43,586 nucleotides of DNA from a virus. Below, piece by piece: positions 4,417-43,448 of the stretch (positions are counted from its first letter, which is position 1; every line of letters begins with the position of its first letter). Position numbers and translations under genes: made by a program. The notes under the pieces were generated by a model that worked only from the letters and a program-made list of their open reading frames with translations, did no database searches and was not told the DNA's origin. The stretch is from IMG/VR virus record IMGVR_UViG_3300017989_000184, positions 1 to 43,586 of that record; one strand, 5' to 3'.

Positions 4417-4573
4417 GGGCGTCATTATCGGCGACCGGGAGATCAGCCATACAATCGAAATGCCAAATTATTCAGAACAGATGCGCGATATCTATGTTTT
4501 GGAATTCCTTAAAAGGCAGTATCCAGATAAGATTCAAAAAATTACAGACGTCAAACATGAGATTGTTGGATGA
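4400..4573 (+). CDS. Hypothetical protein (57 aa)
   Basis: The start ATG 4400 is chosen because AGGAGG (4386-4391) lies eight bases upstream; an earlier in-frame ATG at 4367 lacks such a site. The product has a short beta-rich N-terminus (MKVKIKGVIIGDREI) and a helical C-terminus (YVLEFLKRQYPDKIQKITD). Its stop overlaps the methyltransferase start (ATGA), implying translational coupling. Function unknown. Confidence 0.6.
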   Translation: MKVKIKGVIIGDREISHTIEMPNYSEQMRDIYVLEFLKRQYPDKIQKITDVKHEIVG

Positions 4574-5106
4574 AAAAATACAATATCATTTATGCCGATC
4601 CGCCGTGGAAATTCCGTAACGAGAAAACCGGCGGATCGCACAAATCAGGCGCCGGTCAGAAATATCCGGTAATGGACCTGAAAAAAATTAAGGCGCTGCC
4701 GGTCCCGGAAATCTGCCGCCCGGACGCCGTTTTATTCCTATGGGTCCCGGTCGCGATCGCAGGCTGGGGACTCGAAGTCATGGACGCTTGGAAATTCAAG
4801 TATAAAACGAAATTATTCTGGATTAAGACTGACCGGCTGGGCCTCGGATTTTGGTTTCGAAATCAGGTAGAGGAACTACTTTTCGGAATTCGCGGACGGG
4901 TCCCGGCGTTCAGGACGCGCATAAAAAACTATGTAGCCGCGCCGGTCCTGAAACATTCAGAAAAGCCTCCCGTTTTCAGATTCATAATAAAGGAGGCGAC
5001 CGAAAAAATAAAGCCGCGATATAAGCTGGAAATGTTTGCGCGGACCCGGTCGATCGGCTGGGACGTTTACGGGGACCAAGTGAAAGGATCGATTAAACTG
5101 CCATGA
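4570..5106 (+). CDS. MT-A70 family DNA adenine methyltransferase
   Basis: This 178-residue protein has the MT-A70 hallmarks in order: IIYADPPW (residues 5-12, the catalytic DPPW), LFLWVP, a WF.RNQVEELLFGIRG segment, HSEKPP, and the end motif LEMFART..IGWDVYGDQ. MT-A70 enzymes transfer a methyl group from S-adenosylmethionine to N6 of adenine; phage members act on DNA, often to evade restriction. Length is normal for the phage branch. It is coupled to both neighbours by 4-base ATGA overlaps. The target site cannot be read from the sequence. Confidence 0.92.
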   Translation: MKKYNIIYADPPWKFRNEKTGGSHKSGAGQKYPVMDLKKIKALPVPEICRPDAVLFLWVPVAIAGWGLEVMDAWKFKYKTKLFWIKTDRLGLGFWFRNQVEELLFGIRGRVPAFRTRIKNYVAAPVLKHSEKPPVFRFIIKEATEKIKPRYKLEMFARTRSIGWDVYGDQVKGSIKLP

Positions 5107-14322: not shown

Positions 14323-14744
14323 TAATATAACCTCCTTTTTGTGATCTCGAAATGCGGCAAATCATTGAACCGCTGATCGTTCAAGTCTGTATCCGAATCC
14401 CAATCGCCCCCCCAGCGAATACAATGTTTCATTTTTCCCTGTCTTTTCAGCATGATCGCAATACCAAGGATCACCCCGGCAAAAAATCTCATACGCGGCG
14501 TATTTTTCCAATCAATGGGATACGGTACAACGTCAACCGCCTCGGACGGCAATTTATTATGCTTACTCTCCGGGTATTTAAGTTTTGAAAGCCCGTTTTT
14601 ACACGCTTCCATTTGTGCTTTCCAGCCGCGCCGTCCGCAGATAATTGAAACGTCGATATATTTTATTACCTCATTGAACAGAGTTTGCAGGTCTTCATGG
14701 CACCCGGAAAGTCTGCGCTTTGAGGTTGTTCCAAATTTTGGCAT
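14322..14744 (-). CDS. M15-family peptidoglycan endopeptidase (endolysin), 140 aa
   Basis: M15/VanY-type zinc peptidase motifs are present: SKHNKLPSEAVDVVPYP (H62 and D71) and DLPHFEI (H131), with the RWGGDWD segment between. This is the compact fold of phage L-alanyl-D-glutamate endopeptidases, cutting the stem peptide at lysis. There is no signal peptide, so release probably needs a holin. It overlaps the upstream YkuD-like gene by 79 bases. The metal-binding set looks complete. Confidence 0.88.
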   Translation of the reverse strand: MPKFGTTSKRRLSGCHEDLQTLFNEVIKYIDVSIICGRRGWKAQMEACKNGLSKLKYPESKHNKLPSEAVDVVPYPIDWKNTPRMRFFAGVILGIAIMLKRQGKMKHCIRWGGDWDSDTDLNDQRFNDLPHFEITKRRLY

Positions 14745-15148
14745 ATCTCAATTACTCCGTCGGAAATGTTTAGATCGTCAATGATTTTGAAAAACCGTTC
14801 CGCCTTTGAAACCGGGATCGTTATGCAGCCCATCGATCCGCGCTCGCCATACGGCGGATTTTTCCGGGCCGCGTGGATCGTGCAGCCCTGCATTAAATAT
14901 TGATTTTTCTGCGCGGGATTTGGCCTGCGGGTCCTTACAAAAGCATTATCATTCAAGACGATAACGCCACCGAAGCGAACATATTGAAAAGAATACTGCC
15001 CGTCGTCAATTTGCGGACAGGCTGGATCGTCCGGCGCGGTCGAGCATTCAGAATAAAAGAGCGCGCGCCCCTTATGAAAAAGGATCATGTAATCATTGAA
15101 TCCAAGATCGCCGGGAACACTCTTTACTGATATTTTTATTTCCAGCAT
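14666..15148 (-). CDS. YkuD-like L,D-transpeptidase-fold protein (160 aa)
   Basis: The signature of L,D-transpeptidases is visible: IHAARKNPPYGERGSMGCITI, given here by its key residues H92, S105, G107 and catalytic C108. The N-terminus forms the expected beta start (EIKISVKS ... MILFHKGRALFYSECST). Cellular YkuD enzymes make 3-3 peptidoglycan cross-links or attach lipoprotein. In a phage lysis cassette it may remodel or cleave peptide cross-links (inference). No signal peptide is visible, so export would need the holin or lysis. It sits between the tail fibre gene and the M15 endolysin. Confidence 0.75.
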   Translation of the reverse strand: MLEIKISVKSVPGDLGFNDYMILFHKGRALFYSECSTAPDDPACPQIDDGQYSFQYVRFGGVIVLNDNAFVRTRRPNPAQKNQYLMQGCTIHAARKNPPYGERGSMGCITIPVSKAERFFKIIDDLNISDGVIEICQNLEQPQSADFPGAMKTCKLCSMR

Positions 15149-38858: not shown

Positions 38859-40700
38859 TTAAACTCCTTTCCCGCGCACGCCGCGCCGTTTTGGAGGGCG
38901 TCGCTGGTAGTTCGGAATGAAATTTAAATTATTTTCTGCGAGTTTCGCAAGGTCCAGATTTAGGATACCAAGTGCAACGAGTGAATAGCAGTAGCAGTCA
39001 AGGGCTTCATTTCTTTTCCCGGCAGGTAAAACCCATTGAAACCGGGGCATACCGGATGATATGCGCTTGATCTTTTTTTCAGCCGTCAGCTGCTTGAAAT
39101 AATCCTCGTCAAATTCAGCCGGGAAATGGATAAACCCCGGACCCGGTTGAGCGATTTTTAATCTTGAGTAAAGCACGTCCTTTGCCTGATCTGTCCCGAT
39201 CTGAAAAAGAGCGCATTTTTTTCTATTCCCGCGCGTTGCCTTTCCGACGATCGGGCGACCCGGTCCAGCTATTCCCTTGCCAGCAAATACCCGCCTGAAT
39301 TCTCGCTCTTTACAGAATTCATATACATTGTCAGTCGCAAATCCTGAATCGACAACGGTGCAGGCGATCACAAATTGCTCGCCCCCAGCCCCGTGCCATG
39401 TTCTTAAAAGATACTGATCGAGAAGGTCCCATACACTACCCGGCGTTTTCGGATCGACCTCTGGATCTCCGGGGAAAACGTCGTGGCTGAGTACCCAGCT
39501 TTCAAATCGATCTCCATAGCCGACCGTGCTGCATTCAATTCTGTCGTTTTGAATATCGACGCCAGCGCATAGAACGAGCGCCCCCGGCTGGACGGGCGCA
39601 ATAAATTTTTCGCGGCGCCTCATAAGCCAGTTATGATTAATTGACTCCATAGACGGATCGAAAGTTTCGCCAAGTACGGTGTTTACCCATACCTTCATTT
39701 TCTCCGGGTCCCCTATAGCGTCAAGATGATCGTCAACCGCGTTCAGCCATGAGTACCAGCCGAGCGGAGAATACAGGGCGGACAGGTGGAAACCGGCGAT
39801 CCCGGATTCCGGGTTGTGCTTTCTCCATTCGCCATTGGTCAGCATCCAAGTTTTGTGATGTTCGCGGATTTCCTCTTTGCAGTGTTCGCATTCAAGGAAA
39901 ATAGAGGCGGGATCGGCGGTCCCGTTTTCGCGGCGTTTAAATTTTATGCTCTGCCATTTTATGATCTGCTTTTCTTTGCAGAACGGGCATGGGACATAAT
40001 AATATCGCTGGTCTGATTTCAGGAAATCTTTTTCAATATATGACGCCCCGGCGATCGTCGGAGTTGAAAGAGAATAGACCTTTGCTTTCTGAAAGTTTGT
40101 TGTCCTCTTAACCGCGATATCGATCGGCGATCCCTCCGCGCCCTGAAAACCAACGGACTCCGGGGCGCGGTCCTTTTCGTCAAATATCAAAATCCTGATC
40201 GATTTCGAGGCCAGCGGGTTCGGGCTATTCATTCCGACCATTGAAAGCGATCCGCCGGGGAAGCCCTTTTTTAAAATCCTGTTTTTGGAGTCGCGAGATT
40301 TTGCCGGTGGTATCCGGCGCCTGACCTCGTCCGTCGCGTCGATCGATTTCTGGAGCTTTTCTTCTGAAAATTCCCGGACGGTTTCGACGGTCGGCTGCGC
40401 GTATAAAATCCGGCAAGGATCGTGCGCGATATGGAAAAAAATCAAAATCTTTGCGGACTCTGTCGCGCCTATCTGCGATCCCTTCATGAAAACAACGTGC
40501 CGATATTTAGAATTCGGGGAGAGCGCGCTTAAAATTTCTTTGAGGTATGGGGTCCGGCTGGTCCTCCAGATTCCGGGCTCCGGTTCTTCTTCTGGAATAT
40601 AGTAATGACCGTCAGCCCATTCCCATATTTCGAAATCTGGAGGCGGGGCAAGAGATTCAAAAAACGTCGCCGCGAGCGACCTGTCAAGAATTGTCGTCAT
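38859..40700 (-). CDS. terL: Terminase large subunit, GpA type (613 aa)
   Basis: This is a lambda GpA-type packaging motor. The ATPase has a Walker A-like KGSQIGATES (73-82) and acidic Walker B ILIFDEKDR; the C-terminal nuclease region contains LCAGVDIQNDRIECSTVGYG (metal-binding Asp) and ACTVVDSGFATD. A zinc ribbon is visible (CPFCKEKQII ... CEHCKEEI). GpA-type terminases cut at a cos site or pac-like site and pump DNA into the head. It follows the Nu1-like small subunit, with a 17-base overlap. No frameshift or truncation is seen. Confidence 0.93.
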   Translation of the reverse strand: MTTILDRSLAATFFESLAPPPDFEIWEWADGHYYIPEEEPEPGIWRTSRTPYLKEILSALSPNSKYRHVVFMKGSQIGATESAKILIFFHIAHDPCRILYAQPTVETVREFSEEKLQKSIDATDEVRRRIPPAKSRDSKNRILKKGFPGGSLSMVGMNSPNPLASKSIRILIFDEKDRAPESVGFQGAEGSPIDIAVKRTTNFQKAKVYSLSTPTIAGASYIEKDFLKSDQRYYYVPCPFCKEKQIIKWQSIKFKRRENGTADPASIFLECEHCKEEIREHHKTWMLTNGEWRKHNPESGIAGFHLSALYSPLGWYSWLNAVDDHLDAIGDPEKMKVWVNTVLGETFDPSMESINHNWLMRRREKFIAPVQPGALVLCAGVDIQNDRIECSTVGYGDRFESWVLSHDVFPGDPEVDPKTPGSVWDLLDQYLLRTWHGAGGEQFVIACTVVDSGFATDNVYEFCKEREFRRVFAGKGIAGPGRPIVGKATRGNRKKCALFQIGTDQAKDVLYSRLKIAQPGPGFIHFPAEFDEDYFKQLTAEKKIKRISSGMPRFQWVLPAGKRNEALDCYCYSLVALGILNLDLAKLAENNLNFIPNYQRRPPKRRGVRGKGV

Positions 40701-41262
40701 CTAATTTTGTTTGAGATAGAGCCGTTAGGGCTTTTTTGATTTCGGTCGTGAGAATTTCGTTGCAGGCGAGTATATCCGTTTCGGCTGCGACGATCGCGGC
40801 GACCCGGTCCGGGATATTTAGAAGATGTTTCGAGATTTCGCGCCCACAATGATAAAAGGTTACGCGGACCAAGTCGCGGCGCACTAAGGTTTTTTCCTTT
40901 TCCTCCAGCTCCAGCTTCGCGATCTTTGCCTGCATAATTTCTTTTGCAGCTCGCGCCTTATGGTACTGGTCTGCGGTCCCGTCCATTCCGGGGATATCGG
41001 GATCGTCTTGCTTATCGCCCTTGTTATAAGTCGGCTGAGCGCCTTTGCCCTTCTCTTTTCGAGTGGCCCGGTGTCCGGGGCGGGTCCGATTAGACCAGTG
41101 AGCCTTACACTTTTCAGGATCAAAGCGATAAAGGGTCCTCTGCCCCCTCTTTTCAATTCTTTCTGGTTTAATCCGTCCATATTTTACCGCGTCCTGAACC
41201 GCCCGAAGAGTGACGCCAATAATTCTTGACAACTCCCGCATGGATACAAGCTTATCTGCCAA
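40684..41262 (-). CDS. terS: Terminase small subunit, Nu1-like (192 aa)
   Basis: The N-terminus carries a winged helix (MRELSRIIGVTLRAVQDAVKYGRIKPERI, in part), as in lambda Nu1, which binds the packaging site. A charged linker (KEKGKGAQPTYNKGDKQDD) and a helical C-terminal half (AKEIMQAKIAKLELEEKEK ... REISKHLLNIPDRVAAIV) follow, which would bind the large subunit. The start is TTG 41262 (MADKLVS), with GAAGGAAT upstream; it overlaps the preceding gene. The family assignment rests on pattern and position. Confidence 0.85.
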   Translation of the reverse strand: MADKLVSMRELSRIIGVTLRAVQDAVKYGRIKPERIEKRGQRTLYRFDPEKCKAHWSNRTRPGHRATRKEKGKGAQPTYNKGDKQDDPDIPGMDGTADQYHKARAAKEIMQAKIAKLELEEKEKTLVRRDLVRVTFYHCGREISKHLLNIPDRVAAIVAAETDILACNEILTTEIKKALTALSQTKLDDDNS

Positions 41263-41470
41263 GGTGAAATTCCTTCATTAAAGAAAACATATCAGCGATA
41301 TCCGGGAACCTTGACATTTTATTTACTGCCTTAATCCATTGATCGGCGGGTATTTTTACCATGAAATAATTCCCCTCCCCGTCGAAATCCATGAAATCAA
41401 TTTGAACCGCGCCGTCCGCAAGTCGCTTGAATCTCAAGTTTTCATTTGCCTTGAATTCCTGCTCTGCCAT
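41252..41470 (-). CDS. Small hypothetical protein between radical SAM and terminase genes (72 aa)
   Basis: The start is set at ATG 41470 (MAEQEFKANENLRF), because AAAAGGATC lies directly upstream and the radical SAM stop is one base earlier; a longer frame to 41563 would lie inside that gene. The protein is a mixed alpha/beta unit (VQIDFMDFDGEGNYFMVKIPADQWIKAVNKMSRF). No family recognised. It is coupled with the radical SAM and terminase genes. Confidence 0.6.
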   Translation of the reverse strand: MAEQEFKANENLRFKRLADGAVQIDFMDFDGEGNYFMVKIPADQWIKAVNKMSRFPDIADMFSLMKEFHLGR

Positions 41471-41471
41471 T

Positions 41472-42680
41472 TCATGATCCTTTTTTATACCAGAACTTGA
41501 CCTCGTCCTGATAATCGGTTTCAATGACCTTAGTTGAGTATAGAGCCTTATGGACAATTTCAATATCCTTTTCTTTTGATAATGCTTTCATTGAGTCATA
41601 TTGATCCCGGTCGATACAAAGGCTGGTCCCGATCCTCCAGAGAGCGTGCGCCGGGTACTTACATTGAAAAAATCTGACGCGCTTATTTCGATAAACCGAA
41701 ATCTGAAACATCTTGTCTATGAATTTTTTATCAAGATAGTTTTCAGTTTTAATGTCATGCCGACATTTGAAAAGCGGAGTAAACATTTGATATTCAAGAT
41801 TTGTGAATTTTATAAAAACGCGAGGCCGGACATTGTCGCCCCACGGAATTTCACTGAATAAATTATACCAATCTCGGCGCGGGTCCATGCCGCCGATACA
41901 AAAGAACTGGACCTCCACGCCGAAGCGTTCCGCGAGAACGATCGCCTTGTAGAAATCCTCGTCCGGGAAAGGCTTGCCATATTTCTTTCTATTCTCCGGC
42001 GTCGCAAATTCCAGACCCATTCGGACCAGCCGCGTCTTGCAAGATTTCAATTTTATAAAATCCTTGAGCATCATATCTTTTACCGGGGTATATCTGTAAT
42101 CCTCTCCGTATTCATTTGAGATCACGGTAAGAAATCCCTTGCCCTTTACTGACGCCGTCGCGCGCTTGATCCTCATTTCATTATTTTTCTGGTGCTTATT
42201 TGTCCACGACGTAAAACAAAACCTGCATTTATTTTTGCAGCCGGTCCCGCCCCAATAATAAAAGGTCCGGGTATTAACCTGAACGACGTGGCATTTTTCC
42301 CACTCGATCAGTGTTGACGGCGTGAGCGTTCCGGGCTTTCCACGGTAATAAACACAATCGAGATTCCGCATTTCGCTTTCGTTTTTACATTTGAAAAATT
42401 CAAATCCCTGTCCGACGTTTACGATATCAGCGAAGATCGCGCAGGCTTTATAATAGAAAGCGAAGTGTCCGCCGACCGCGATCCGCTGATCGGGGTGATA
42501 GTGCCTGATTTTTTCGAGATCGGCGAGGCCGGTGACGTCACACAAGGAAACGAGAATCATTTCCGCGCGTGCCGGGTCCGGGGTCACGTCATGCCGATTT
42601 AATTTTGCGAGCCGTTCCAGTAGTGAAAAAGTATAATGCTTATTTGTCCCGCCAACGTTTTTATGAATGTAAAATATCAT
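41472..42680 (-). CDS. Radical SAM enzyme with B12-domain-like N-terminus (402 aa)
   Basis: The cluster-binding motif C148-x3-C152-x2-C155 (GTGCKNKCRFCFTSW) identifies a radical SAM enzyme: it would bind a 4Fe-4S cluster and cleave S-adenosylmethionine to start radical chemistry. The N-terminal 120 residues have the pattern of a cobalamin-binding-like Rossmann domain (ARAEMILVSLCDVTGLADLEKI, IAVGGHFAFYY, IVNVGQGFEFF), but the DxHxxG motif that ligates cobalamin is absent, so B12 use is doubtful. LVRMGLEFATPENRKKYGKPFPDEDFYKAIVLAERFGVEV (in part) fits the TIM-barrel part. The substrate is unknown. It is coupled by a 20-base overlap to the ParB-like gene and precedes the terminase genes. Confidence 0.85.
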   Translation of the reverse strand: MIFYIHKNVGGTNKHYTFSLLERLAKLNRHDVTPDPARAEMILVSLCDVTGLADLEKIRHYHPDQRIAVGGHFAFYYKACAIFADIVNVGQGFEFFKCKNESEMRNLDCVYYRGKPGTLTPSTLIEWEKCHVVQVNTRTFYYWGGTGCKNKCRFCFTSWTNKHQKNNEMRIKRATASVKGKGFLTVISNEYGEDYRYTPVKDMMLKDFIKLKSCKTRLVRMGLEFATPENRKKYGKPFPDEDFYKAIVLAERFGVEVQFFCIGGMDPRRDWYNLFSEIPWGDNVRPRVFIKFTNLEYQMFTPLFKCRHDIKTENYLDKKFIDKMFQISVYRNKRVRFFQCKYPAHALWRIGTSLCIDRDQYDSMKALSKEKDIEIVHKALYSTKVIETDYQDEVKFWYKKGS

Positions 42681-43308
42681 TAATTACCTCTATCAATTTT
42701 TCTTGCAGTTTCAAGTTGACCTCAGTTTTTTTGTCCTCATTCGCTGCCATGAAATCGCAGAACTCCATGATCCGATCGGAGTCCCCCTTGTCCTTAATAG
42801 TAAAAGTATATTTGTTTATCCAGATGATCATATTTTTTCCGGGATTCCGCATGGCCCCCTCGTGCGTTCCGCCGACCCCATCATTGAGCTCGATTTCGAG
42901 ATCTCCCATAAGCCCGTCAATTTCTTCCTTTGAAAATCCTGTCAGGTTCAGGTCGAAGCCGTCCGTTTTCAGCTCGTCCATTATTGACTTGAGCAGCGTT
43001 TCGTCATAGGGCTGACCCTCCCCGAGCCGGTTGTCTGCCAGAAGATAAGCCTTGCGCCGGGCAACCGGGATATGGTCGAGGTTAATTGTCGGCACCTCGG
43101 CGATCTTTAGGTCCTTTGCTGCCAGAATACGACCATGCCCCGCCCAGACCTTGTTTTCGCTATCAATCAGGACCGGATTGTTGAACCCGAACTCCACGAT
43201 CGACGCGGCGATCTGCGCGACCTGTTCAGTTGTATGGATTTTGGGGTTGCGCTCAAAGGGCTGCAGATCCTTGAGCTTTTTAATTTGGATTTTATCTACA
43301 AGCTTCAC
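42661..43308 (-). CDS. ParB/Srx-fold protein (215 aa)
   Basis: Residues 10-95 form the ParB N-terminal (sulfiredoxin-like) domain: LKDLQPFERNPKIHT, ASIVEFGFNNPVLID, the nucleotide-binding GHGR (57-60), and KIAEVPTINLDHI. Residues 88-135 (YLLADNRLGEGQPYDETLLKSIMDEL ... LTGFSKEEIDGL) are the extension seen in phage ParB-methyltransferase proteins. The methyltransferase domain itself is missing here; about 75 residues of unrelated helical C-terminus take its place. Related phage ParB-fold proteins are found with DNA methylases or PAPS-reductase-like enzymes (IbrA/IbrB); here the partner is a radical SAM enzyme. The start is GTG 43308, the first gene of the late operon. Confidence 0.85.
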   Translation of the reverse strand: MKLVDKIQIKKLKDLQPFERNPKIHTTEQVAQIAASIVEFGFNNPVLIDSENKVWAGHGRILAAKDLKIAEVPTINLDHIPVARRKAYLLADNRLGEGQPYDETLLKSIMDELKTDGFDLNLTGFSKEEIDGLMGDLEIELNDGVGGTHEGAMRNPGKNMIIWINKYTFTIKDKGDSDRIMEFCDFMAANEDKKTEVNLKLQEKLIEVINDILHS

Positions 43309-43419: not shown

Positions 43420-43448
43420 AATATACTCAAAGAGACGAGACTCGTCAA
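43420..43448 (-). promoter_or_regulatory. Strong leftward promoter of the late operon
   Basis: On the minus strand the -35 is TTGACG (43448-43443) and the -10 is TATATT (43425-43420) with 17 bases between. It lies about 110 bases before GTG 43308 of the ParB-like gene. The spacer and -35 are overlapped by GACGAGT heptads, so binding of a repressor there would block polymerase. Confidence 0.75.

Follow-up and report, generated by a model that had tools for sequence, protein, structure and literature searches.

We found that a gene pair encoding a ParB/Srx-fold protein and a radical SAM (rSAM) enzyme, located ahead of the terminase genes in the window (the whole 43,586-nucleotide stretch of viral DNA analysed here), recurs in dozens of very different uncultivated phages at a position where other phages keep known DNA-modifying enzymes, and therefore probably represents an undescribed way of chemically marking phage DNA. 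On balance we favour the view that the two genes, which head the late operon, form a DNA-modification cassette in which ParB guides the rSAM enzyme to modify phage DNA before packaging.

The gene pair and its locus

The genes run on the minus strand in the order ParB, rSAM, a 72-aa ORF, TerS and TerL (Table 1). Successive genes downstream of ParB are separated by overlaps or by a 1-nt gap, which is consistent with translational coupling, and a ribosome-binding-like AAAGGG precedes the ParB start. The sequence-only reading of this DNA had described two coupled genes with a 20-base overlap ahead of terminase, and both ORFs and their overlap were recovered. Its further claim that the pair has its own strong promoter is less secure: it comes down to a single sigma-70 match, and the region contains 5 such matches where shuffled sequences give 4.3, so that the promoter evidence is weak. 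Relatives of the 72-aa ORF outside the window phage were not found in the loci searched.

Table 1. Window coordinates of the ParB–rSAM pair and of the features around it
Feature	Position	Strand	Details
ParB/Srx-fold protein	42661..43308	-	215 aa, GTG start, ORF
rSAM enzyme	41472..42680	-	402 aa, ORF
Overlap of ParB and rSAM genes	42661..42680	-	20 nt
72-aa ORF between rSAM and TerS	41252..41470	-	ORF
Terminase small subunit (TerS)	40684..41262	-	phrog_57, E 4.6e-31
Terminase large subunit (TerL), gpA type	38859..40700	-	PF20454, E 1.8e-80; PF05876, E 1.1e-76
Sigma-70-like promoter match upstream of ParB	43420..43448	-	TTGACG-17-TATATT, 10/12

Another contig of the window phage (IMGVR_UViG_3300017991_000474; loci L002 and L135) stops within about 1 nt of the right end of the window (43586). 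This shared end lies about 280 nt upstream of ParB and could mark either the physical terminus of the genome or a repeat at which assembly broke off. The early region of the window encodes an MT-A70-type methyltransferase (4570-5106, plus strand; PF05063, E 2.3e-23), which probably gives this phage a second methylase, acting on DNA or RNA, and towards the distal end of the late region (14669-15148, minus strand) there is a weak match to YkuD L,D-transpeptidases (E 1.5e-4, below the Pfam cut-off).

Sequence and predicted structure of ParB and the rSAM enzyme

The window ParB matched phrog_620, 'ParB-like partition protein' (E 4.7e-46), and its Pfam ParB_N match was sub-threshold (E 0.011). The motif GHGR (in AGHGRILAA), noted in the sequence-only reading, takes the place of GERR. 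The methyltransferase is absent, as that reading had stated: we found no such domain, and the match to phrog_498, 'DNA methyltransferase' (E 5.2e-43), is confined to the N-terminal 141 residues. The protein consists of an N-terminal domain (residues about 1-135) and a C-terminal tail (about 158-213) of predicted alpha/beta fold. Foldseek searches with its AlphaFold2 model (pLDDT 87) gave Noc, KorB and ParB as best matches, and weaker matches to free serine kinase and sulfiredoxin. Profile, fold and motif together place the protein in the ParB/Srx superfamily.

The rSAM enzyme is built from a Rossmann N-domain (GG70-71, G90), the cluster motif GCKNKCRFCFTSW (residues 147-159), an rSAM barrel and a helical C-terminus. 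The cysteines of the cluster motif (C148-x3-C152-x2-C155), which the earlier reading had called an intact CxxxCxxC, are invariant across 30 aligned members of the family. The Pfam Radical_SAM match of the window protein is sub-threshold (E 4e-4, under the curated cut-off), and 21 of the 30 members match PF04055 at E<=1e-3. An AlphaFold2 model computed from the 30-row alignment (pLDDT 94.3, pTM 0.91) had rSAM enzymes only as its top Foldseek matches, among them MgmA (E 2.7e-12), TsrM, MiaB, TokK, OxsB and RimO; motif and barrel thus identify a member of the rSAM superfamily.

In the predicted model the N-terminal domain folds like a cobalamin-binding/MiaB Rossmann domain, the arrangement of the cobalamin-type (class B) enzymes MgmA, TsrM, TokK and OxsB, which share this domain, the barrel and the GG and GxG motifs with the window protein but are not homologous to it at useful sequence identity. 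A few relatives give weak PF02310 matches. The sequence-only reading had noted a B12-domain-like N-terminus without the cobalamin His motif; indeed, DxHxxG is absent from the first 130 residues of the window enzyme and occurs in 1 of 30 sequences in alignment A1 and 0 of 22 in A6. Its absence does not bar cobalamin binding; some known class B enzymes also lack it. The cobalamin-rSAM-like fold of the model suggests C-alkylation chemistry.

MiaB and RimO have the same overall N-domain and barrel, but the window family lacks the three conserved N-terminal cysteines of their auxiliary [4Fe-4S] cluster. No auxiliary-cluster cysteines were found, the three rSAM cysteines being the only ones conserved at >=90% in the family, which argues against a methylthiotransferase. 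Viperin (E 0.034) and PylB were also rejected as identities, each having given a sub-threshold match alone.

Extent of the rSAM family

The window rSAM has no PHROG match, the PHROG library containing no model for the family, and a protein search found no match among 50,697 phages or in plasmid records. Protein searches with it returned just one other contig of the window phage, and scans of viral contigs with the window ParB and TerL returned the window phage alone. Five members tested against phage records (the window enzyme and four further ones) gave no match. The family was uncovered by scanning viral contigs with a degenerate cluster motif, GC..KC.[FY]C...[ST]W, which yielded at least 119 stretches; phmmer on the ORFs of the listed stretches gave several dozen clear homologs besides the window copies, at E about 1e-112 to 1e-30. 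In an alignment of thirty members, 17 columns are invariant and identity to the window enzyme is 16-44%. The members form two subfamilies, 'TSW', which includes the window, and 'YTW', which profile comparison relates to each other (E 1.3e-35).

A scan specific for TSW gave 43 stretches in viral contigs, and 8 in 84,980 bacterial and archaeal genomes. Of these 8, four combine a strong score with the presence of a ParB, and no ParB accompanies the remaining four. The A1 scan of 298 genomes of the Methyloceanibacter order returned the already-known Methyloceanibacter genome alone, and the A6 scan of the family of the Oscillospiraceae MAG, run without a positive control, found 0 of 301 genomes. 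Lacking both a phage record and a PHROG model, the family is seen here in metagenomes and MAGs alone. A separate group, which offers a useful contrast, consists of longer phage rSAMs (L006, L009, L016 and L054) whose cluster is followed by an ETW motif; no ParB was found in the stretches examined.

Conservation and co-divergence of the pair

Comparison of sequences established the pair, its conservation across unrelated phages, the co-divergence of its members, the matching of tail to enzyme and the exchange of partners beside the same ParB family. Once near-duplicates had been discarded, at least 450 nt of upstream sequence was available for 66 rSAM genes. A same-strand ParB gene lay within 200 nt in 57 of these and within 500 nt in 5 more, and was missing in 4; most pairs overlap, by 3-70 nt. 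The sequence-only reading was to fall if the pair were confined to close relatives. It passed this test, distant family members nearly always following a ParB. TerS/TerL of several lineages usually lies downstream, with several TerS PHROGs represented and, at TSW loci, TerL of phrog_2, 38, 979, 15, 9 and others.

Pairwise distances of rSAM and ParB were correlated (Mantel r=0.51, n=25, and r=0.52, n=20; p=2e-4), whereas those of rSAM and TerL (r=0.06, p=0.20) and of ParB and TerL (r=0.11, p=0.09) were not; the partial rSAM–ParB correlation given TerL was 0.52. Since rSAM and ParB co-diverge and TerL does not follow them, the pair moves as a unit among phages with different terminases, landing in the same place.

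The C-terminal tail of ParB differs with the enzyme. A zinc ribbon of the CPKCG type ends 38 of 38 ParB partners of YTW enzymes and 0 of 39 partners of TSW enzymes, a partition without exception, for which a Fisher value is not independent evidence because the sequences are related. This tail is not exclusive to rSAM partners, however: the ParB of Moraxella phage Mcat8 (L144:3492-3992), which is partnered with a C5 methylase, has a CPKCG zinc ribbon at its end as well. At another locus (L134:4987-9925, minus strand) there are two ParB genes, one before the rSAM gene and the other directly before a 169-aa gene and TerL.

Other enzymes beside the same ParB family

In isolated phages, chosen from ParB hits and not at random, the recognisable neighbour or fused domain of related ParBs was usually from a DNA-modifying family. 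An N6/N4 methylase is fused to ParB in P8625, IMGVR 15682261, 8818211 and Funu2; Mom accompanies ParB in Psychrobacter Y8A (PF25680, E 1.8e-55), a TAGT glycosyltransferase in E. coli 673R7 (E 1.1e-34) and Lactobacillus c5 (E 4.5e-54), a C5 methylase in Mcat8 (E 3.6e-58) and, in Pasteurella Pmp13, a protein that matches both ATPase and GNAT. Most ParB–enzyme units directly precede TerS–TerL, and TerS–TerL or TerL is downstream in Y8A, 673R7, c5, Mcat8, Pmp13, P8625 and Funu2; the exceptions, in the stretch seen, are Vibrio D93 and halovirus HHTV-2, which has a ParB–TAGT unit and no terminase within the stretch viewed. The window pair has the same layout, a homologous ParB gene adjoining that of an enzyme a little ahead of terminase. 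The neighbours in the isolates strongly support the earlier suggestion that the ParB-fold protein pairs with different DNA-modifying enzymes.

The partners are exchanged between closely related ParBs. The Y8A protein shares 78% identity with the ParB moiety of a ParB-methylase from another Psychrobacter phage, and 67%, 59% and 57% with the ParBs of Mcat8, Pmp13 and 673R7; this one close group (57-78% identity to Y8A) has five different partners among its members. Identity between them and the window ParB is 44-52%. At one locus (L019:5303-8752, minus strand) two ParB modules stand side by side, with ParB–rSAM, a small HNH-like ORF (81 aa) and a ParB–N6/N4 methylase in tandem. Hendrix and RcFrancesLouise have ParB near terminase without a recognisable modifying partner, so that ParB by itself may contribute to packaging. 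In Dulem virus 36 (L147:3471-5411) ParB is followed by a 190-aa gene and an rSAM of the different, PA0069 family, a combination that may have arisen independently.

Among known arrangements the closest are the ParB–N6/N4 methyltransferase fusions (phrog_498; P8625, pOW20-A and Funu2), whose homologous ParB N-domain is 39-52% identical to that of the window, which also lie just upstream of TerS–TerL and whose presumed target is DNA; there the enzyme is fused, whereas in the window it is a separate rSAM protein. The phages with ParB and Mom, TAGT, C5 methylase or GNAT share the two-gene organization, usually upstream of terminase, but differ in chemistry, and the TAGT-type ParBs have a common tail of their own over about 240 aa. 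A ParB-fold protein also accompanies a DNA-modifying enzyme, as we propose here, in the Dpd system, where DpdB, partner of DpdA, is a ParB-like ATPase in dPreQ0 insertion during deazaguanine DNA modification (PMC12839542), and at CmoX loci, where ParBc proteins occur near the DNA carboxymethyltransferase and their function is stated by the authors to be unknown (PMC12783734). Neither system contains an rSAM, their chemistries being deazaguanine exchange and carboxymethylation. We found no description of a ParB–rSAM phage pair in the openly licensed literature, and the pair would appear to be new, with a reservation for Iyer et al. 2013, which would be the likeliest place for an earlier mention.

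Proposed function of the pair

What the enzyme acts on, what ParB contributes, and the nature, timing and purpose of the reaction are inferred as follows. ParB would engage DNA as an adaptor, probably nucleotide-dependent, with its C-terminal tail matched to the enzyme that it serves. After replication of the phage DNA, and ahead of its packaging by the adjacent terminase, the rSAM enzyme would cleave S-adenosylmethionine at its [4Fe-4S] cluster and make a covalent change to a base of that DNA; the altered genome would then resist restriction in the next host. A narrower version, which we put forward only tentatively, is that a ParB adaptor guides a cobalamin-type rSAM on polymerised DNA, where the enzyme alkylates an unreactive base carbon and so creates a new base modification, and that the ParB fold is a general adaptor for swapped DNA-modification chemistries. 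The MT-A70 methylase that the window phage has elsewhere counts against a DNA-modification cassette. If the proposal is right, radical SAM chemistry joins the enzymes that mark phage DNA, and ParB, whose role beside phage DNA-modifying enzymes has been described as unknown (PMC12783734), can be named as a common adaptor. The surroundings of ParB genes would then point the way to further unknown DNA modifications. The matching of tail to enzyme offers a directly testable means of predicting the enzyme that a given ParB serves.

The main uncertainty of the DNA-modification reading is the substrate, since the fold relatives act on other molecules: MgmA and RimO on protein, MiaB on tRNA, and TsrM, TokK and OxsB on small molecules. 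To our knowledge none of these closest solved relatives, the class B enzymes among them, acts on DNA. The enzyme could accordingly modify RNA or protein (for example tRNA, terminase or a capsid protein). ParB would in that case be its NTP-dependent partner or regulator, and the terminase neighbourhood would reflect late expression alone. We consider this unlikely given that the cysteines of the MiaB/RimO auxiliary cluster are missing, that ParB co-varies with rSAM and not with TerL, and that the identifiable partners beside the same ParB family are DNA-modifying.

ParB/Srx folds bind and hydrolyse nucleotides, and together with the free serine kinase and sulfiredoxin matches of the ParB model this would suit a pair that acts on nucleotides or a host defence signal rather than on a polymer, in counter-defence or viperin-like chemistry. 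Such a function is improbable, the viperin match being sub-threshold and the families in the equivalent position (TAGT, Mom and the N6/N4 and C5 methylases) being those of DNA modification. Direct assistance to packaging, with ParB at the packaging site, the rSAM as a redox or SAM sensor and no lasting modification, would account for the constant placement of the pair just upstream of TerS–TerL and for ParB genes that adjoin terminase without a recognisable enzyme; this has a slight probability at most, because neither protein co-diverges with TerL and all 30 aligned rSAM members keep their catalytic residues unchanged. Finally, although late-operon heads gather accessory genes, the idea that ParB and rSAM are separate accessory genes and neighbours by chance is scarcely credible, being contradicted by their adjacency, mostly with overlap, by the exceptionless tail matching and by their co-divergence.
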